Notes under the pieces: model-generated
What the model was told of the DNA's origin: nothing
The model's input: only the letters and a program-made list of their open reading frames with translations
Databases searched by the model: none
In this document: piece after piece, positions 17,100 through 27,726 of the stretch
Numbering within the stretch: the stretch's first letter is position 1
How the letters are laid out: each line of letters begins with the position of its first letter
Source: a virus
Virus record (IMG/VR): IMGVR_UViG_3300021956_000065
Span: 1-27,726 of that record
DNA: 27,726 nucleotides
Direction: 5' to 3' (one strand)
Made by a program: the position numbers and the translations under genes

Positions 17100-17819
17100 C
17101 TAAAAATTATTAAGGTTTAATACTTGGTTTTTTGTGGCAATTGTTACCGGTATGCCGAACCGCTCTTGTGTTATTCTTTTGAACTCTCGTTCATTTGATA
17201 CGCCATCACTAAGGTGAAGTAAAACAATGTTTTTGCACTCGCTTAAATCCATTTTTTCAAGCGTTAAAATAGCCGTTTGAATGCTCATGTGCGACTTTAA
17301 ACGGCGTTTATTGATGAAGCTATCCGACTTGCTTTTGACGATGTCCTCACAATAATTGGCTTCGATCATTACACACGTGAATTTCCATGAACTTAGATTC
17401 CAAATCAACTTGTAACTATCAGTCAAGAAAAAAACTTTTTCGGCTCCTGCTTCAATGATAAATCCAAGCGTGTCGATGTCATGCGAAGCATCAAACGAAC
17501 TTACTTTGAATTCATTGATTTGCTTTTGTTGACCGTTCTTTAATGTTCCGTATCTCAATTCGCTTGGCGTTTTCATTTTGTCAAACGTTGCACTGGAAGC
17601 GAATAATGGAATACCTAATTGTGAAACTTGGTGCATTGACTTTGAATGATCCAAATGGGCGTGCGACACAATTGCGCCTTTAATCTTGAACACATCAAAA
17701 TCAATCGCCTGTTTTACTTCGTCTACCTTGACCCCGCACTCGATTAAGAGCGCGGAGTTTTCGGTTTCTAGAATGTAGGAATTTCCGACACTACCGGATG
17801 AAATGATTTTCAACTTCAT
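17100..17819 (-). CDS. MBL-fold metallo-hydrolase
   Basis: A 239-aa protein from ATG 17819, two bases after the recT stop; a TTG start at 17825 is less likely. The metallo-beta-lactamase metal site is intact: SHAHLDHS (His53, His55, Asp57, His58), SHDIDTLGF with a later His, FLTDS with the bridging Asp, and HLSDG near the end. The pattern resembles YycJ/WalJ-like and phage MBL proteins. These are often encoded next to RecT, where a nuclease role in recombination has been suggested but to my knowledge not settled. Direct coupling to recT and co-transcription with DUF4494 support a DNA-related task. Confidence 0.87.
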   Translation of the reverse strand: MKLKIISSGSVGNSYILETENSALLIECGVKVDEVKQAIDFDVFKIKGAIVSHAHLDHSKSMHQVSQLGIPLFASSATFDKMKTPSELRYGTLKNGQQKQINEFKVSSFDASHDIDTLGFIIEAGAEKVFFLTDSYKLIWNLSSWKFTCVMIEANYCEDIVKSKSDSFINKRRLKSHMSIQTAILTLEKMDLSECKNIVLLHLSDGVSNEREFKRITQERFGIPVTIATKNQVLNLNNF

Positions 17820-17821
17820 TA

Positions 17822-18655
17822 TCAAAAGTCTGGCGAAGGTGTGATTGCTGGATTTTCTTGCGGTTGTTGCAATTCAAATGTAATGTCTTGACTTGCGGTG
17901 TCCTCAATAATTTCGTGCGCTACGTCTTCGATTTTTGTTTCCTTCGCTTCGTATTCGTCCTCCAAAAGAAACGCATCCGTTGAGCTATTAATCGGAGTTT
18001 TACAAGCGCGATTAATTACGGTCTTTTTCGCCATTTCATCCGTGAAATTTTGATGCGCTGGCGATGCGCCTTTAGTCGCGCCTTGATTCCAAGCCTTGCG
18101 AATCTGATCCATATTCATAACCGTAAGGTCTGAACGCCCATCGTTGTAGTTTACGATTGCATAAGCACCAATGATTTTTGTTGTGTCAATGTTTTTTAGG
18201 CTTTGTGTGTGCTTAATAACGTGCATGTAGCCAGTTGATGGATTGATTCCATACTCAAACTCATCACCTTCATAAATCACGTTTGCAGGAACGTCCTTAA
18301 CATTTGCAACGCGTTTCGCTAATGCAATCGAGCCCTGATAGCTTCTTGACCACTGCAATTCATCACCGTAAGGAATAAAGTACCCTTGTCTTTTCAATGG
18401 TGAAAGCCCTTCGACTACCATTTTCAACAATGCTTGCGCAATACTTGTTTTTGTGCAAACTTGCAACGCTGGTTGTTTGTTACGATCCTTTAACTCCTCC
18501 AGGATTAACATCGCGCCTTTCAATGCGTTTTCGGGTGAATAGTCCGCAGGAATGCGAAGCTCTCCCGTTGTTTCAAACGCTTTAATCTTTGCGAGAACTT
18601 GCGTTGTGATTTCTTTTTGCACCGCTGCCGGTTGCACGTTTTCTGTTTTTGACAT
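17822..18655 (-). CDS. recT: RecT-family single-strand annealing protein
   Basis: A 277-aa protein with the RecT pattern. An N-terminal helical part leads to the core: ALLKMVVEGLSPLKRQGYFI, then PYGDELQWSRSYQGSIALAK and RVANVKDVPANVIYEGDEFE, and further NYNDGRSDLTVMNMDQIRKA with KTVINRACK. RecT proteins bind single-stranded DNA and anneal complementary strands during phage recombination and replication. The acidic, Pro/Gln-rich C-terminal tail (about 240-277) is typical of a partner-binding end, perhaps for host SSB. A well-formed Bacteroidota promoter lies just upstream, so recT heads its own transcript followed by the MBL hydrolase and DUF4494. Confidence 0.92.
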   Translation of the reverse strand: MSKTENVQPAAVQKEITTQVLAKIKAFETTGELRIPADYSPENALKGAMLILEELKDRNKQPALQVCTKTSIAQALLKMVVEGLSPLKRQGYFIPYGDELQWSRSYQGSIALAKRVANVKDVPANVIYEGDEFEYGINPSTGYMHVIKHTQSLKNIDTTKIIGAYAIVNYNDGRSDLTVMNMDQIRKAWNQGATKGASPAHQNFTDEMAKKTVINRACKTPINSSTDAFLLEDEYEAKETKIEDVAHEIIEDTASQDITFELQQPQENPAITPSPDF

Positions 18656-18678
18656 AATTATGATTTTTAGAATTTTAA

Positions 18679-18710
18679 CAAATATAAAACTTTATAGTTT
18701 AAATTGCAAA
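18679..18710 (-). promoter_or_regulatory. Bacteroidota-type promoter for recT
   Basis: On the minus strand a TTTG (18710-18707) is followed after exactly 20 bases by TATATTTG (18686-18679). This agrees with the Bacteroides/Flavobacterium consensus TTTG-N19-21-TAnnTTTG. The start site would fall near 18672, leaving a leader of about 17 nt before the recT ATG. The -33 element lies inside the 23-codon ORF 18699-18770. Confidence 0.82.
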
Positions 18711-18770
18711 TAAAAGATAACCTATTGTGATTCCTGCCAGGATGTGAAGTATTCTTTCAATTGGCTTCAT
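18699..18770 (-). CDS. Putative mini membrane peptide (23 aa)
   Basis: The frame MKPIERILHILAGITIGYLL... has 23 codons, is almost entirely one hydrophobic helix with a basic N-terminus, and overlaps the stop of the preceding 88-aa gene by 14 bp. It could be a real micro-membrane protein or chance coding over the recT promoter. Only its position and hydrophobicity support it. Confidence 0.35.
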   Translation of the reverse strand: MKPIERILHILAGITIGYLLFAI

Positions 18771-19023
18771 TATTTCCGTTTTTTTTAAGTATTTCTAATT
18801 TGCATTCTTTATCAAAAATTGGATACCATCTTTTAGTTGCTTTTTTATCAGTTAATTCAACGCACTTACATCCATTAAATGTCCTATAACCTATAAATAT
18901 GCCAATTCTGTTTGGATTATTTTGTCCAGCCCAATGATTACAAACTAAATCGCCTACTTCAATTTTTGAGCGAAAATTTTTCATTCCTTTAACTCCTATT
19001 TTTTCAAATTCTACTGTTTTCAT
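18757..19023 (-). CDS. Small protein, SH3/KOW-like (88 aa), unknown function
   Basis: The core reads KIEVGDLVCNHWAGQNNPNR followed by IGIFIGYRTFNGCKCVEL and a Trp/Tyr turn (RWYPIF). The V-G-D-L-V...G-I-F-I-G pattern is typical of small SH3-like or KOW-like barrels. I know similar orphan proteins in Bacteroidota phages but no function. The start is coupled by ATGA overlap to the 78-aa gene through the repeated junction sequence. Base composition is AT-rich, as in the other small genes here. Confidence 0.65.
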   Translation of the reverse strand: MKTVEFEKIGVKGMKNFRSKIEVGDLVCNHWAGQNNPNRIGIFIGYRTFNGCKCVELTDKKATKRWYPIFDKECKLEILKKNGNNEAN

Positions 19024-19256
19024 TGTTCTTGTTGTTTAAGTTGCTGCAAATGTTCTTTAACTAAAAATTCATAATGAAAAGGCAAATCCATTTTAAAGTG
19101 TTCAAATACTTCTAAAACTTCTTCCTCACTATACATTTTTTTAGATTGCCATTCAGCACCTGCTATAAAATCTTGTTTATGTGCTTCTTGAAAAACAGGT
19201 GCAGTACTTCTTTTAGAATATTTCTCAGCAGCTTGTTCTAATGTTTCTTGTGTCAT
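19020..19256 (-). CDS. Small phage protein, FIAGAEWQ/YSEEEVL family
   Basis: A 78-aa product with the string QDFIAGAEWQSKKMYSEEEV, a pattern I recognise in many small Bacteroidota phage proteins whose function is unknown. The C-terminus ends LKQQEQ, the same as in the two genes before it, because the three genes share an identical junction. Its ATG overlaps the preceding stop. It is probably a helical accessory protein of the recombination/early unit. Confidence 0.68.
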   Translation of the reverse strand: MTQETLEQAAEKYSKRSTAPVFQEAHKQDFIAGAEWQSKKMYSEEEVLEVFEHFKMDLPFHYEFLVKEHLQQLKQQEQ

Positions 19257-19480
19257 TGTTCTTGTTGTTTAAAGATTTTGTCATAAAAAATATCTACAAA
19301 TTCACTTGCTTCTCTTTCGTCATTTCCTAAAATGCATTGTGATTCTTTGGTATAGTCTTTAAGTTCTTCAACAAGTAATATTTTCTGCTCCTTCTCCATT
19401 TCTTTGGCTTGTATTACTAATGGACTATCTTTTGGTAAATGATATTCATTAACCAACCATTCTACTGCTGTTTCTTTCAT
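19253..19480 (-). CDS. Small phage protein, AVEWLVNE family
   Basis: A 75-aa protein starting MKETAVEWLVNEYHLPKDSP and continuing VIQAKEMEKEQ. This matches a very common but uncharacterised small-protein family of Flavobacteriia and other Bacteroidota phages, usually encoded near replication or recombination genes. It ends FKQQEQ and is coupled on both sides by the repeated junction with ATGA overlap. It is likely helical; no catalytic residues are evident. Confidence 0.72.
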   Translation of the reverse strand: MKETAVEWLVNEYHLPKDSPLVIQAKEMEKEQKILLVEELKDYTKESQCILGNDEREASEFVDIFYDKIFKQQEQ

Positions 19481-19635
19481 TGTTCTTGTTGTTTAAGTTC
19501 TTCTAATTCTTGTTCTTTTTGCGCTTTTATTTCCTTAAGTCTTTCAATTCGCTTTATAATTCGTTCAATTTCAAATTGCTCAAATGATAAAATAGTATTT
19601 GAGCAATTCAATTGATTAACTTGTACATATTTCAT
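19477..19635 (-). CDS. Small coiled-coil protein (52 aa)
   Basis: From ATG 19635 the frame reads MKYVQVNQLNCSNTILSFEQ, then an amphipathic, charged helix (IIKRIERLKEIKAQKEQELE) and ends LKQQEQ. The start overlaps nothing, lying just after the ATPase stop at 19638; the stop overlaps the next ATG. The product would be a short coiled coil, perhaps a partner of the neighbouring SMC-like ATPase, though that is speculation. Confidence 0.6.
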   Translation of the reverse strand: MKYVQVNQLNCSNTILSFEQFEIERIIKRIERLKEIKAQKEQELEELKQQEQ

Positions 19636-19637
19636 TT

Positions 19638-21563
19638 CTAGTTTATTACGGTTAATACTTTTTTACTTTCATCAACTTTCAAGTTGATCACCTGACACTC
19701 GGTTTTGATTAATGACACAATACTTTCGCGTTGATCAATAAACACCGGTGCAAAGATTCCAAAATGATAGTTGAGCGCGTTGATTACGTCAAGTCCTGCG
19801 TTGTACTTCATTGCGGTATTCAAATCATTGAACGGTGTTCCGTTTACGATTGCTTCGCACGTGTCGGCAAGTCCTCCGTTGATTTGCTCGTCAAACATCT
19901 TCCATTTCACGATTGAAAACTTCGAGTTTACTCGTTGCTCGATTGTTTCGATTTGAATTTTGTTGTATTGATCAATCTGCATTTCAATTTTTTCGCAACT
20001 TGCTACCTCTTGCGCAAGTGTGCGTTGTTGGCTTTCTAGTTCTGCAATACGCTCGTTTGTCTTTGCGATTTGATTTGCAATGTTAAGCGTTTGTTTTTTA
20101 GCGTCAATCTCTTGTGAAATCGTTGCCTTAGCTTCTCTCAAATCGCTAATGTCTGGCAATTCAATTGAAGGAATTACTATTGATTCAATTTGAACTTTTA
20201 ACGCTTCGATTTCGGGTGTTGTCGTTGGTCGTTCACCAATGATTGACTTTTCCCATTCTTGCAAATACGTTTTCTTTTGCTCGATTTGCTTTTGAATTTC
20301 TTGATTTGCAATGTTTACGTTTTCAATCGATGATTTGTACCGCTCAATCCTTTCGTTATTTGCTTTGCCTTGTTCGCGGATTTTTTCAAGTCGTTGCAAT
20401 TTGTCCGTATTGAATGCACTACGAAGCTCCTCAACTTTGCTTTCATAGTCCGGAAGTGATTGTTTACACGTTGGACAATTTTTGTCTTGGCAATTTTCGT
20501 CAAACATCATGTTGCTGACCTTACCAAATTGATCACGTAAATCTTTGTTTTGTTTAGTTAAAACCTCGATTTCGTTCAAGTCAAATGAAGTGCTTGTATT
20601 TAAACTTTGAACAAGCGTCTTAATCTCGTTCTCCAGCTCCGCACGTTTCGATTGAATCGACCAAGCGTATTGTTTCTCGCTTTGGTTAAATTCATTTTGA
20701 AGCTCATTCAATTTAGTAAGAAGCTCATATTTTTGCTCCTGAACTTTCTTCGCTTGCTCTTGTGATTTCTCAACTGATTTCAATCGGTTTTGCATTTGCT
20801 CGTCAATTGAATTCAATTCACCATCCAATGAAATGATTTCGTTTTGTACTGCGCACGCGTCAACTGGTTCCGGCATGTTATAGCGTGCTTCGTCAATGCG
20901 CGGTTTGATTGTAGCTAGTTCTTCTTTAAGTTTCTTTTTCTTTGCTTGTACGACTTTCTTTTGCTCGTTTAGTTCATCACCTTTCGCAAGCATTTCGCGA
21001 AGCTCATCAATGTTACCATTCATTTGCGAAACAATTTCATCTTGTTTGATTTCGCCTGCCATTGATGAAAGGATTTTCCTGCGCTCGTCCCACTTCATTT
21101 TTTCATTGAAGTACAAAGGATTTGAAATGATTTTAGAAATGTTCTCATCAATCATTTCCGATACTGCGGTTTGATACTCGCCTTTCGACTTTGGTACGTC
21201 ATTGACAAAGAACGTTGTTTCGTGTCCTGTAAGCTCTTCTAAATCGTTTCCTCGTTTAGTTGTCCACTTTTCACGATAAACGCGCTTAAAAGTGATTATT
21301 TTGCTATCTACGTCGAATGTACCTACGACTTCGTGTTCAAGTTTTGGTATTGCGCGGTTATTATCGTCAAGTGTCTTAATTGCAAAGTCGTTTTGATCGT
21401 GCGAGTTTTTACCGTACAATAGCCACGTGTACGCGTCAAAGATTGTGGATTTACCAACTCCATTCGTGCCGATAATATCGGTTTCATGTGTGAAATCAAT
21501 CGAAAGGTTGGTGATTTTCTTGAAATTACGAAGTTCAAGTCTCGTTAAAGTTACTTTTTTCAT
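19638..21563 (-). CDS. SMC/Rad50-like AAA ATPase with zinc hook
   Basis: A 641-aa protein. The N-terminal lobe begins LTRLELRNFKKITNLSIDF and holds Walker A GTNGVGKST (32-40), a classic start for RecN/SbcC/Rad50-type ATPases. Long coiled coils run from about 200 to 560. Near the middle is a zinc hook, NCPTCKQSLPD (CxxC at 363-366), the dimerising tip of Rad50-like proteins. The C-terminal lobe contains NGGLADTCEAIVNG, possibly the degenerate signature region, and a Walker-B-like strand FAPVFIDQRES (Asp610). In phages such ATPases pair with nucleases or annealing proteins; recT and an MBL hydrolase follow downstream. An SbcD-type nuclease is not adjacent. A promoter element and inverted repeat precede the gene. 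Confidence 0.88.
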   Translation of the reverse strand: MKKVTLTRLELRNFKKITNLSIDFTHETDIIGTNGVGKSTIFDAYTWLLYGKNSHDQNDFAIKTLDDNNRAIPKLEHEVVGTFDVDSKIITFKRVYREKWTTKRGNDLEELTGHETTFFVNDVPKSKGEYQTAVSEMIDENISKIISNPLYFNEKMKWDERRKILSSMAGEIKQDEIVSQMNGNIDELREMLAKGDELNEQKKVVQAKKKKLKEELATIKPRIDEARYNMPEPVDACAVQNEIISLDGELNSIDEQMQNRLKSVEKSQEQAKKVQEQKYELLTKLNELQNEFNQSEKQYAWSIQSKRAELENEIKTLVQSLNTSTSFDLNEIEVLTKQNKDLRDQFGKVSNMMFDENCQDKNCPTCKQSLPDYESKVEELRSAFNTDKLQRLEKIREQGKANNERIERYKSSIENVNIANQEIQKQIEQKKTYLQEWEKSIIGERPTTTPEIEALKVQIESIVIPSIELPDISDLREAKATISQEIDAKKQTLNIANQIAKTNERIAELESQQRTLAQEVASCEKIEMQIDQYNKIQIETIEQRVNSKFSIVKWKMFDEQINGGLADTCEAIVNGTPFNDLNTAMKYNAGLDVINALNYHFGIFAPVFIDQRESIVSLIKTECQVINLKVDESKKVLTVIN

Positions 21564-21586
21564 AGCGTTGTATTAAAGAATTTAAG

Positions 21587-21611
21587 CAAATATAGTATAA
21601 TTATTTATACT
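21587..21611 (-). promoter_or_regulatory. Candidate promoter with overlapping inverted repeat (operator) for the ATPase gene
   Basis: TATATTTG on the minus strand (21594-21587) fits the -7 consensus, 24 bp before the ATPase ATG. Directly upstream lies the inverted repeat AGTATAA-TTAT-TTATACT (21594-21611), which would occupy the spacer between the -33 and -7 elements, a usual place for a repressor. The -33 element itself is weak (TTTT). Confidence 0.5.
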
Positions 21612-21620
21612 AAAAATATT

Positions 21621-22154
21621 TTAATGTGAATTATTTTCATTAAATCCATTACTAAATTCTGAATCTTTAAATAATGAAGCTAATCCGGTAATTTGTTTAA
21701 GTCTTAGTAATTCGTCTTTATCCATTCCGATATGTTTAATGATCCAAGCGTCACTCATTCCGCTTTTTACTAACTCATCTACAATATTGCTCATTAATTC
21801 AATTGAATGTGAACCACGCGCACGATTATGGCGAATAGTTGAAGCCATGCGATTTGAAATGTCTTTTTGAATAACTACAACTGGTAACATTCCTTGTTCG
21901 CGCTCAAATATTCGTTTTGAAGTCTTTAATGTTCTATATCTATGAAATCCATCTACAATTTCATAAATGTCCTCGTCTTCTAAATAATAGCAAACAACTG
22001 GCATTGTATAGCCATCTTCCCAAATTGAAGTTTCAAGAAGTGCCATTTCAGGACTTGCTACACTATTAGGATTGTAGCTATTCGCTCTAATTTTATCAAT
22101 ATGTATACTTAACACATTGTAAACGGGTGATTTTTTATTTTCCATTTGATACAT
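21621..22154 (-). CDS. ParB/Srx-fold protein, IbrB-like
   Basis: A 177-aa protein (start ATG 22154; ATG 22145 is also possible). Residues 14-100 show the ParB N-terminal fold: LSIHIDKIRANSYNPNSVAS, a helix, then YEIVDGFHRYRTLKTSKRIF, where DGFHRY corresponds to the ParB box II-like motif, and PVVVIQKDIS. Residues 103-118 (MASTIRHNRARGSHSI) and the following GMSDAWIIKHIGMDKDELLR helices are the signature I associate with IbrB-type partners of PAPS-reductase-family proteins. ParB-fold proteins can bind or cleave nucleic acids and hydrolyse nucleotides. It overlaps the IbrA-like gene, so the two are expected to work together. Confidence 0.82.
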   Translation of the reverse strand: MYQMENKKSPVYNVLSIHIDKIRANSYNPNSVASPEMALLETSIWEDGYTMPVVCYYLEDEDIYEIVDGFHRYRTLKTSKRIFEREQGMLPVVVIQKDISNRMASTIRHNRARGSHSIELMSNIVDELVKSGMSDAWIIKHIGMDKDELLRLKQITGLASLFKDSEFSNGFNENNSH

Positions 22155-23418
22155 TTTTAAATTTTGTTTCAGCTTGTTTTCTTATTTCGTTTTCTTTTTT
22201 TGTTAATGAAAAACCCATGAATTTACATAAATGATCATTTTTCATAATACATACACACATTCTTTTAAATGTAGGTATTTGATTAAACTCAGTGATATCA
22301 ATATCATCTAAATATTCCATTCTTACAGGTAATTTATTAGTGTTGTAATTAGATGATGTGGATACTTCAATTTTAACATTGTTATTTTTTAATTTTTCAA
22401 TTACTTCACCTGATAGGCAGCCGCCTTTTTCCCTCCAAAAACGTTGTGAAGTTTCTAATTTTGATTTATAGTTTTCAGAGGTTTGCTTTGGGAGTGTTGA
22501 CAATAAAAATTCCATGTAACTTTTCCAGGTATGTCCCTTTGGTAATTTAATTGAACGCCAACCCATTGCTGTTGTTCCGCCGTATAAACCCGTGAAATTA
22601 ACACCGTTTACACGACCTATTAATTTACCCCAAATATGCGGCTCAATTACTTTATAAAGTTTTAAACTATCTTGCGCTGTTGATATAAATGGTGATGCAA
22701 CACGCATTTGATCAATAGTTAATCCTGCTTGATAAAAAATATCATAAAGTTTATTGTAAGTCCATTCAAATTTAAAGTTTGCGGTCCAAATGTCGGTTGT
22801 TTTCCAATCGTAAATTGGATAAGCGTTATAAACATTTGAATACATTTCTTTAGTAAAGTTTTGATCTTTGTACTTTTTATAATTTCGATCTGAATGAATA
22901 GCTCGCCAGCGATTCAAACTTTCTTGCGTACGAATACCAACTAAACAAGCTGTTTTTTTTGCTCCCTTTAATTCATGATACCATTTACTAAATTTTTCTT
23001 GAAATTCATAATCCCACATATCAGTATTAAAGAATTTGAAATGTTTTGATTCGTAACAAGTTTTAGGTTTACCCGATACCCATAAGTCTTTTTTGTCTTG
23101 CTCCCATGGTCTCCAAAATGATTGATGCATCGACGTGCATGTAGTAACTTTAAATGGAACACAACAACGGTAAATTTCAATAATATCTAAATTTTCATTT
23201 AAGGTTTCATTTACGTAATTTGTAGTCATTTCGTATTGAGCCTCATAGTCCAAATGAAATACCCCAATTTTACGATTTAAATTATTATTTCGTATGTAGT
23301 CAATACAAAGATTTAAAAGAACTCCAGAATCTTTACCTCCAGAAAAAGAAACATAAATATTGTCAAATTCATCAAATAAAAATTTTAATCGCTCCTGTGT
23401 TTTTTGATATACATTCAT
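22135..23418 (-). CDS. PAPS-reductase-family protein, IbrA-like (DUF3440 type)
   Basis: A 427-aa protein whose N-terminus has the PP-loop of the adenine nucleotide alpha-hydrolase/PAPS reductase superfamily: IYVSFSGGKDSGVLLNLCID with SGGKDS at 26-31. Later come RCCVPFKVTTCTSMHQSFWR, GIRTQESLNRW and YPIYDWKTTDIW, a set typical of IbrA/DUF3440 proteins rather than of true sulfate-assimilation CysH. The C-terminal 50 residues (PTFKRMCVCIMKNDHLCKFM) form a small domain that is also encoded separately just upstream. Family members activate a substrate by adenylation, often for sulfur transfer; the substrate here is unknown. It is coupled by ATGA overlap to the free-standing domain gene and overlaps the ParB-like gene. 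Confidence 0.85.
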   Translation of the reverse strand: MNVYQKTQERLKFLFDEFDNIYVSFSGGKDSGVLLNLCIDYIRNNNLNRKIGVFHLDYEAQYEMTTNYVNETLNENLDIIEIYRCCVPFKVTTCTSMHQSFWRPWEQDKKDLWVSGKPKTCYESKHFKFFNTDMWDYEFQEKFSKWYHELKGAKKTACLVGIRTQESLNRWRAIHSDRNYKKYKDQNFTKEMYSNVYNAYPIYDWKTTDIWTANFKFEWTYNKLYDIFYQAGLTIDQMRVASPFISTAQDSLKLYKVIEPHIWGKLIGRVNGVNFTGLYGGTTAMGWRSIKLPKGHTWKSYMEFLLSTLPKQTSENYKSKLETSQRFWREKGGCLSGEVIEKLKNNNVKIEVSTSSNYNTNKLPVRMEYLDDIDITEFNQIPTFKRMCVCIMKNDHLCKFMGFSLTKKENEIRKQAETKFKNVSNGK

Positions 23419-24731: not shown

Positions 24732-25634
24732 TTATTCAATCCGTAGCGAATCTCTAAAATTGACAATATCAAAATCATCACCGATTGCTTTGAGTCTTTC
24801 AATTCCGTTGATGAGTTGTTGAACATCGACTGGAGTTGGCGAGTTGGTGATTGCAATCCTCGCGATTTCAGCTTGCTTTGCAGTAATTCCTCCGTCTTTG
24901 TGGAGTCTATTAACAATTTTGAGTACATGGGCGTTTGGTTCATATTCTTTTGGGGTGTTAGTGTTTGTATTACTTTGTTTCAATTCAAATAATCCTTTAT
25001 ATAAATTAGAAATTGATTGATCAACTATCATTCTGGCTATTTCACTTTTACCTTTTGACAATTTACAAAGGCTATTTAGTGCTTTTTGGTTTGAATTTGG
25101 GTTTTTGTATTCTTGTGAGAATTGCTCTTTCTTAAAATTTAACCACTCTAACCAAACATTTGAAATTTCAGAATTATCAAATGATGAGAAATCAAGTTCT
25201 TCTAATTGTATATTTGTTAAGTTGTTAAGTTGTTTATTGTTAAGTTGTTTATTTATACTATCAATGCTTTGTCGTGTGCTTTTCACTTGCTTTGCATTGT
25301 GCTTTATCATCGCTTTATCAAGTGCTTTATCAAGTGCTTTGTTAAATTTTGATAGAGCAATTATGTTTGCAGAATACTGATTTTTGCTTTTTTCTACCAA
25401 AGTAATGAAGCCGAATTCAACTAAATCGTTAAACGCTTTTGAATAAGTATTGTAAGATTTAATACCGACTGCTTCCATAACCATTGTCGTAGGCAATCCA
25501 AAATTCTTTTTCCATCCCAAGCGATTACAATGTTCAATAGAAAAGCAATAAATTGCCACGTGTGAAGGGGTTACTTTTTGAGGATTCTCAAAACACCAAT
25601 CGAAAAACGATCTATAAAGTTCGTAGCTGTTCAT
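24732..25634 (-). CDS. Replication initiator / helix-turn-helix replisome organiser
   Basis: A 300-aa protein from ATG 25634, which overlaps the stop of the 59-aa gene (TGATG); a GTG at 25637 would add one residue. Residues 1-95 form a winged-helix domain (VTPSHVAIYCFSIEHCNRLG ... SYNTYSKAFNDLVEFGFITL) typical of Bacteroidota phage replication proteins. A low-complexity linker (about 98-145: KALDKALDKAM, NKQLNNKQLNN) follows, then a second helical domain with WLEWLNFKKEQFSQEYKNPN and IVDQSISNLYKGLFEL, and a C-terminal helical region. DnaD-like organisers and lambda O share this two-domain layout. The DNA for the linker carries repeat arrays that look like the origin. Confidence 0.8.
   Translation of the reverse strand: MNSYELYRSFFDWCFENPQKVTPSHVAIYCFSIEHCNRLGWKKNFGLPTTMVMEAVGIKSYNTYSKAFNDLVEFGFITLVEKSKNQYSANIIALSKFNKALDKALDKAMIKHNAKQVKSTRQSIDSINKQLNNKQLNNLTNIQLEELDFSSFDNSEISNVWLEWLNFKKEQFSQEYKNPNSNQKALNSLCKLSKGKSEIARMIVDQSISNLYKGLFELKQSNTNTNTPKEYEPNAHVLKIVNRLHKDGGITAKQAEIARIAITNSPTPVDVQQLINGIERLKAIGDDFDIVNFRDSLRIE
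25214..25345. repeat. Candidate replication origin: iteron-like array plus AT-rich direct repeats inside the initiator gene
   Basis: Seven GCTTT cores begin at 25266, 25278, 25289, 25301, 25312, 25324 and 25336, that is every 11 or 12 bp, close to one helical turn. They fall in all three reading frames, so the pattern is not explained by the KALD peptide repeat. Beside it, 25214-25251 holds TTGTTAAG three times and TTGTTTA twice in tandem (a 15-bp unit repeated perfectly at 25222 and 25237) in very AT-rich DNA, like a DNA-unwinding element. This mirrors lambda ori inside gene O. Confidence 0.65.
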
Positions 25635-25813
25635 CACTCGCCTTTCATAATGAACAACTTTAACTCATCTAATTGCTCGTTCGGAATAATAAAGTTTGTC
25701 GTTTGGCTACTGGATGCGCTTTGAATTTCAACATACAAACCATCTTGACAAAAATTCATTTGTAAAGTTTCTCTTGCAATTGGACACTCAGCAATCGATT
25801 TAAAAACTACCAT
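25634..25813 (-). CDS. Small protein upstream of the initiator (59 aa)
   Basis: A frame from ATG 25813 reads MVVFKSIAECPIARETLQMN ... FIIPNEQLDELKLFIMKGE. The alternation of strands and a final amphipathic helix suggests a small alpha/beta protein. Its stop overlaps the initiator ATG (TGATG), so the two are translationally coupled. It is the first gene after the terminator-bearing RNA element at 25841-25927. No family is recognised. A regulatory role for replication onset would fit the position but is unproven. Confidence 0.65.
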   Translation of the reverse strand: MVVFKSIAECPIARETLQMNFCQDGLYVEIQSASSSQTTNFIIPNEQLDELKLFIMKGE

Positions 25814-27253: not shown

Positions 27254-27726
27254 TTATTTATTTAAAGTTTCTAAATATGCTTTGTAAGCGTTAAAAATTG
27301 CGTGAATTTGTTTAAATTCTTGCGTGTCGCGTTTTGTTGTAATTACTGCGTCACTTGCAAAGAACTTTTCCCATTCCTCAACACTTCGTTTTTCACAGCC
27401 AATGTGAATTAACCCATTAGTTATTCCGTGAGCCCACTTACAATACATAGGTACTTTGATTGCACGGCTTAGGTCTGCACCGATTAGGTATGCATCTCTT
27501 AGGTCTGCGCCGCTTAGGCATGCACAGCTTAGGTCTGCGCCGCTTAGGTATGCACAGCTTAGGTCTGCGCCGCTTAGGTCTGCATCTCTTAGGTCTGCGC
27601 CGCTTAGGTATGCACAGCTTAGGTCTGCGCCGCTTAGGTATGCATCTCTTAGGTATGCATCTCTTAGGTCTGCGCCGCTTAGGTCTGCGCCGCTTAGGTA
27701 TGCATCTCTTAGGTCTGCGCCGCTTA
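27254..27726 (-). CDS. Pentapeptide-repeat protein, partial (N-terminus outside window)
   Basis: The frame is open to the right edge, so ATG 27448 is an internal Met. From the edge it encodes at least 17 tandem pentapeptides of form A(D/Y/C)L(S/R)(G/D/C), such as [10 protein letters not shown] and AYLSC. These build a right-handed quadrilateral beta-helix. A conserved end follows: [20 protein letters not shown], then [18 protein letters not shown] and a helix [15 protein letters not shown] recognise this C-terminal domain from phage pentapeptide proteins. Some pentapeptide proteins mimic DNA and bind gyrase, but nothing here proves that role. Its 15-bp DNA units are nearly identical. Confidence 0.88.
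27461..27726 (-). repeat. Tandem 15-bp repeat array coding for pentapeptides
   Basis: Seventeen full units and one partial unit follow without gaps. Most are one of three types (plus strand TGCGCCGCTTAGGTN, TGCATCTCTTAGGTN, TGCACAGCTTAGGTN, where N is A or C). Synonymous differences are almost absent, which indicates recent expansion or gene conversion. The array continues beyond the window. Confidence 0.92.

Follow-up and report, generated by a model that had tools for sequence, protein, structure and literature searches.

The linker region of a phage initiator gene very probably carries the replication origin of the phage, bound and opened by the protein that the same gene encodes. The gene lies on the minus strand (24732-25634) of the window, a 27.7-kb fragment of a tailed-phage genome from a virus record. 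An embedded origin is the best reading of several computed results: an array of short direct words, the conservation of that array across reading frames, the bending of codon choice to the DNA word, adjoining repeats that resemble a DNA unwinding element (DUE), the linkage of the array to one protein domain and the swapping of modules between relatives. From these we infer binding, melting, helicase loading and initiation.

An array of direct repeats inside the initiator gene

The putative iteron array occupies positions 25266-25340 on the minus strand and comprises seven words of the YAAAGC type, which on the coding strand mostly read YAAAGCA(C/A); it was recognized by word count, reading frames, recoding and homologues. 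Its GCTTT cores (AAAGC on the coding strand) start at 25266, 25278, 25289, 25301, 25312, 25324 and 25336; in the direction of the gene the AAAGC steps are 12, 12, 11, 12, 11 and 12 bp. A recount thus matched exactly the seven cores at 12, 11, 12, 11, 12 and 12 bp of the original prediction, which had also placed them in all three frames of the gene; the frames computed within the minus-strand open reading frame are 0,0,0,2,2,1,1. Its description of the spacing as helical holds only approximately: the steps are indeed 11-12 bp, but their mean of 11.67 bp differs from the helical repeat of B-DNA.

The seven-word array is not due to chance. It is the only chain of at least three AAAGC words at 11/12-bp steps in the window, and the longest chain in 200 dinucleotide shuffles of the whole window had two. 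When the peptide was kept fixed and codons were redrawn from the window's own usage, seven AAAGC words turned up in 9 of 300,000 synonymous recodings, and in 0 of 5000 in a separate run.

Scans of viral contigs and bacterial genomes yielded homologues of which about 108 are distinct at the linker, and the array is kept in these Bacteroidota phages, prophages and the isolated Polaribacter phage Danklef. Their arrays comprise 3-9 sites, mostly 6 or 7. Neighbouring sites lie 11 or 12 bp apart in 512 of 557 gaps and 23 or 24 bp apart in a further 40, so that 99% of the gaps measure 11, 12, 23 or 24 bp; in 28 of the 40 long gaps a one-mismatch AAAGCA stands at the phased middle position. The Danklef_1 array has nine sites at 12,12,12,11,12,11,12,12 as well as a 7/8-bp block, and no second array of this kind was found in the complete Danklef genome or in the window. 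Four linkers (L117, L120, L134 and L135) are divided into two sub-arrays separated by 43-55 bp, a distance that misfits 11/12-bp steps.

A repeated AT-rich block beside the array

A second set of repeats, the proposed unwinding element, adjoins the array at 25206-25253 (minus strand). It is an AT-rich block of tandem 7/8-bp repeats with ACAA on the coding strand, and its assignment draws on the spacings in homologues. In the window, TTGT occurs at 25206, 25214, 25222, 25230, 25237 and 25245, with spacings of 8,8,8,7,8, and there are tandem-repeat matches besides. This is the TTGTTAAG/TTGTTTA stretch that the original prediction had set beside the cores: the block is real, but it begins at about 25206, slightly earlier than first described. 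In the homologues the unit is WACMANNN(N), mostly with 4-7 copies in tandem, and WACMA words are spaced by 7 or 8 bp in 274 of 320 cases, against about 58 expected from synonymous recoding. They are spread over the three frames, with lags of 7, 8, 15 and 16 exceeding both nulls by a wide margin. AT content drops to about 58% within the array and climbs to 77-79% over the next 40 bp.

Between the two arrays lies a TAGTATA box (25254-25260, minus strand; TATACTA on the opposite strand). In the direction of the gene, TAGTATA(R)ATAAAC directly follows the AAAGC array and is itself followed by the WACMA repeats. The Ser-Ile codons of the box are AGT-ATA in 99 of 101 homologues, whereas elsewhere in the genes these codons account for 27% of Ser and 45% of Ile codons. 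Judged by their sequence, the TAGTATA box and the WACMA repeats are two further DNA-level parts beside the array.

Conservation of the array as such would be the same if the protein bound it as an operator, or as an incompatibility or copy-control site acting through autoregulation or handcuffing, rather than as a start site; plasmid iteron arrays also set copy number (PMC5703833). We consider this improbable. The array is always paired with the conserved, one-sided, AT-rich repeated block, which an operator does not need; it lies about 300 bp inside the gene, away from the promoter; and promoter-like matches at the array stay at chance level.

Codon choice follows the DNA word

The one DNA word is read in three ways according to frame: as K-A (KALD repeats), as K-H or K-Q, and as Q/E-S (STVQ-like repeats). 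Blocks of the array lengthen by 12-bp units within a frame, and 11-bp steps switch the frame. It had been suggested as a check that the spacing be kept while the linker peptide varies, and this is what about 100 homologues show, with 11/12-bp steps kept and a peptide type that shifts with the frame. Codon usage agrees. A Lys that precedes Ala uses AAA in 324 of 327 cases in the linkers versus 42 of 60 outside them, and Ala is GCA at 289 of 297 positions within sites versus 435 of 1079 elsewhere. For Ser, AGC makes up 162 of 181 linker codons (90%) versus 205 of 1642 (12%) elsewhere, while frame-2 sites use AAG for Lys against a threefold preponderance of AAA elsewhere. In the N-terminal domain, by contrast, conserved residues are coded freely, the commonest codon having a mean share of 57%. 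The relatives L007-L009 and L018 have just four sites left, and for them the codon test by itself is without significance.

These figures bear on the alternative that the constraint is on a functional K/A/S/Q-rich linker peptide, whose codons would give rise to the DNA repeat incidentally. KALDKAL-KH--KQ is indeed conserved in nearly all homologues, and AlphaFold suggests a helix at residues 102-118, a K/A-rich stretch that is conserved as a peptide too and may have a role as such. Yet codons are fitted to the DNA word differently in each frame, as AAA, AAG or AGC, the word remains constant while the peptide type shifts with the frame, the second (7/8-bp) array cycles through all frames, and the synonymous nulls speak against it. 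A peptide repeat as the explanation is very unlikely and was rejected on the synonymous nulls and the frame analysis. The same nulls and the frame-dependent codon bending uphold the earlier view that a DNA-level constraint overrides the peptide repeat.

The predicted initiator protein and its neighbours

The predicted replication initiator has 300 aa counted from an ATG, with an alternative GTG start at 25637; the prediction draws on the open reading frame, the homologues and a weak match to PHROG 18020, 'replication initiation O-like' (E 1.6e-4). The window protein has no Pfam match at all, and neither an O-family nor a PF06970 (RepA_N) match was found for it or among 68 homologues. An AlphaFold2 model (68 homologues) has a winged helix at residues 1-94, mostly with pLDDT over 90 and in the order HH-E-H-H-EE, followed by a low-confidence, poorly ordered linker across the array and by two helical C-terminal regions. 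The N-terminal winged-helix domain (residues 1-96; 25347-25634, minus strand), assigned from this model and from VIA-align, is the putative DNA-binding part. VIA-align relates it to the initiator structures 4pql, 4pt7 and 5kbj with Z of 9.2, 9.0 and 8.7 over 106-108 residues and, with 4pta included, Z of 9.2-8.2 over 100-108 residues, while the winged helices of Fur and LexA tie over fewer residues. We take these four structures to be initiators of the RepA_N type. Foldseek against the PDB gave nothing significant (best E 0.014), and a PDB sequence search with the N-terminal profile returned antibody noise only.

The C-terminal helical domains (residues 150-300; 24735-25187, minus strand), delimited from homologue modules and the AlphaFold2 model, are proposed to recruit the helicase. 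C-terminal parts are extremely diverse and are swapped between relatives; in the 68 homologues these modules match O-like, primosomal, DnaD-like helicase-loader and replisome-organizer PHROGs. Downstream, the overlapping gene P0002 (24194-24943, minus strand; 249 aa, with an all-helical, low-confidence model) is by its position a candidate helicase loader or partner; it has no PHROG match at E<=0.01 and no Pfam match. In L050 and L036 the overlapping or abutting next gene is a DnaB helicase or primase-helicase, and no DnaB match was found in the window contig, a fragment. The anatomy first proposed, with iterons and an unwinding element inside the gene for the binding protein, between its winged helix and C-terminal domains, is thus supported by sequence and by the AlphaFold2 model, as a lambda-like design and not as a lambda O homologue.

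A close homologue in Danklef, gene 43 (Danklef1_43, MT732458.1), matches the window protein at 61.7% over 124 aa and has nine iterons and the 7/8-bp block, but a different C-terminal domain. It is annotated as a 'transcriptional regulator', without mention of an initiator or origin; from its sequence it is better described as a replication initiator with an embedded putative origin.

Elsewhere in the window, the block at 17100-23418 encodes RecT (17822-18655), a metallo-beta-lactamase-like protein, an SbcC-like protein (19638-21563), a ParB-like protein (21621-22154) and a PAPS-reductase-like protein (22135-23418). At 27461-27726 the contig ends within a 15/30-bp tandem array of one-frame DLSGA-type pentapeptide units on the reverse complement, likely a pentapeptide-repeat gene cut by an assembly break.

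Linkage of the array to the initiator domain

Viral contigs were also scanned for four AAAGCA words at 12, 11 and 12 bp, with protein information left unused. Of the 155 arrays found, 153 are immediately preceded, on their own strand, by the same winged-helix domain, a linkage that is not fully independent of the gene, since the pattern partly encodes the conserved peptide. The other two are both on one truncated contig with the same linker.

In a sister phage (L318), whose flanks are 83% identical to the window, an unrelated initiator stands where the window has the N-terminal domain, the putative origin and the middle domain; the last ~80 codons of the initiator gene and P0002 are retained. 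This substitute for the cassette (MAAGKKNVIVYTDW...), at L318:1782-2666, has a linker with 6-bp TGTAAG repeats in tandem (L318:2090-2134), which are, going by their sequence, perhaps another embedded origin. A distant homologue in Riemerella phage PT33 (L253:3299-3407) has other repeats at this point of the linker: a 12-bp unit, TGAYACRGTT, and an AT-rich one of 15 bp. The TGAYACRGTT unit stays in one frame there, so that DNA and peptide constraint are inseparable. The deposited PT33 gene, UVK80343.1, begins downstream of the homologous N-terminus.

Tandem direct repeats are typical of partition centromeres too, and the ParB-like gene lies about 3 kb from the array, which might then serve partition, packaging or recombination through another phage or host protein. 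There is very little to recommend such a site, however: the arrays go one-to-one with the initiator domain, the more distant Riemerella phage initiator carries another repeat in the corresponding position, no ParA-like gene was recognized among the scanned window proteins, and the ParB-like match is a short protein, with ParB domains linked to methyltransferases and nucleases among its best PHROG relatives. An mRNA-level structure or small-RNA site would suit a signal within a transcribed gene but can practically be dismissed, as the RNA of the region folds no better than shuffled sequence (z 0.44) and the repeats, being all direct, do not pair among themselves.

Candidate embedded signals in other phage initiators

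A blind scan compared frame-shifting sequence lags in each gene with synonymous recodings of that gene. It recovers the lambda iterons in gene O at lag 23 (1/200) and, at the same lag, the arrays of the window and of Danklef (0/200 each), and initiators found via Polaribacter phage P12002L have a 22-23-bp excess in the linker region. Among these relatives (L258-L317), L259, L281, L301 and L310 are examples of the many whose linkers have 22/23-bp repeats and, after them, stretches resembling AATAATACA; other phages, too, seem to use this embedded-origin design.

Comparison with known origins and a possible mechanism

Embedding an origin in the gene of its initiator is an established design, described for lambda (PMC7466680, PMC6022878), SPP1 oriL (PMC6316719) and pSK41 RepA (PMC5703833). 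In lambda, iterons and a one-sided AT-rich tract lie in the middle of the initiator gene O (PMC7466680, PMC6022878), and the family described here shares this anatomy, with iterons and AT-rich tract inside the initiator gene, between the DNA-binding and C-terminal parts. The details differ. Lambda has four 18-bp inverted repeats, whereas the window family has 3-9 direct words every 11/12 bp, and its AT tract, unlike that of lambda, is itself a 7/8-bp tandem array. In lambda, two O proteins occupy each iteron (PMC6022878), hence roughly one subunit per 11.5 bp, and the two designs may share this density, with inverted repeats in lambda and direct ones here.

In pSK41 the origin lies centrally in rep and is bound by the N-terminal winged helix of RepA, the middle part of which is an origin-encoded linker, deletable in trans, and chimeric swaps of N-terminus and origin are known (PMC5703833). 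The likeness is one of anatomy only, in that origin-like repeats lie centrally in the gene, in the linker-encoding part, alongside a match of the window model to 4pql, 4pt7, 4pta and 5kbj over about 100 residues that Fur and LexA equal in score; the window gene differs in lacking a PF06970 match, in belonging to a Bacteroidota phage, and in the sequence, number and spacing of its iterons. SPP1 oriL likewise combines direct repeats with an AT-rich DUE, the repeats being inside the gene for gp38, the origin-binding protein of the phage (PMC6316719), yet SPP1 has a second origin, oriR, elsewhere, whereas no second array was found in the Danklef genome or the window. The window system would work like lambda O, yet it is not filed under lambda O or RepA_N, as Pfam gave no sequence homology to either and, in the case of lambda, its AAAGCA words are non-palindromic and stand in a single orientation.

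If the array is an origin, the N-terminal winged helix would bind the direct AAAGCA(C) iterons head to tail, one subunit per 11-12 bp. The resulting nucleoprotein would strain the adjacent AT-rich block of TAGTATA and 7-8-bp repeats and so melt it, and the C-terminal domain, with the overlapping downstream gene, would bring a DnaB-type helicase. The linker peptide would be mostly a by-product of the DNA signal. An inflection of GC skew at the array had been proposed as a check and proved uninformative: skew is flat in the window, with no inflection, and the detrended minimum in Danklef (29,913) lies near the array (29,333) but with a block permutation P of 0.16-0.25, about 0.2, and an unremarkable local change, for which reasons skew is not used as evidence.

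A bolder and rather doubtful extension is that a single initiator filament spans both arrays in two registers, with one head-to-tail subunit per 11-12 bp on the duplex iterons and, further on, one per 7-8-nt repeat on one strand of the melted AT block. A non-AAA+ winged-helix initiator might then open DNA by sequence-specific capture of a single strand, as DnaA-trios serve DnaA, and the fixed periods of 11.5 and 7.5 could be a general rule for phage initiators of such build.

No described origin in Bacteroidota phages was found in the open-access literature, and the replication passages of the Danklef paper mention no origin site. The claim that no description exists for this Bacteroidota phage initiator family agrees with that literature, although absence is unprovable. 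What seems to be new, as far as the sequences go, is the Bacteroidota family itself, iterons that are direct, spaced by 11/12 bp and spread over three frames, and the repeated 7/8-bp unwinding block.

Since the blind scan picks out both the lambda ori and the 22/23-bp signals in other initiators, it could locate many phage origins from sequence alone. For a large family of Bacteroidota phages and prophages, a cultured phage included, the present work provides a predicted origin, and because its iteron and DUE signals are short, conserved and spread over all three frames, replication would be testable by purely synonymous mutations. The strict 11/12-bp and 7/8-bp geometry, kept over many lineages, constrains models of how a winged-helix initiator may open DNA.
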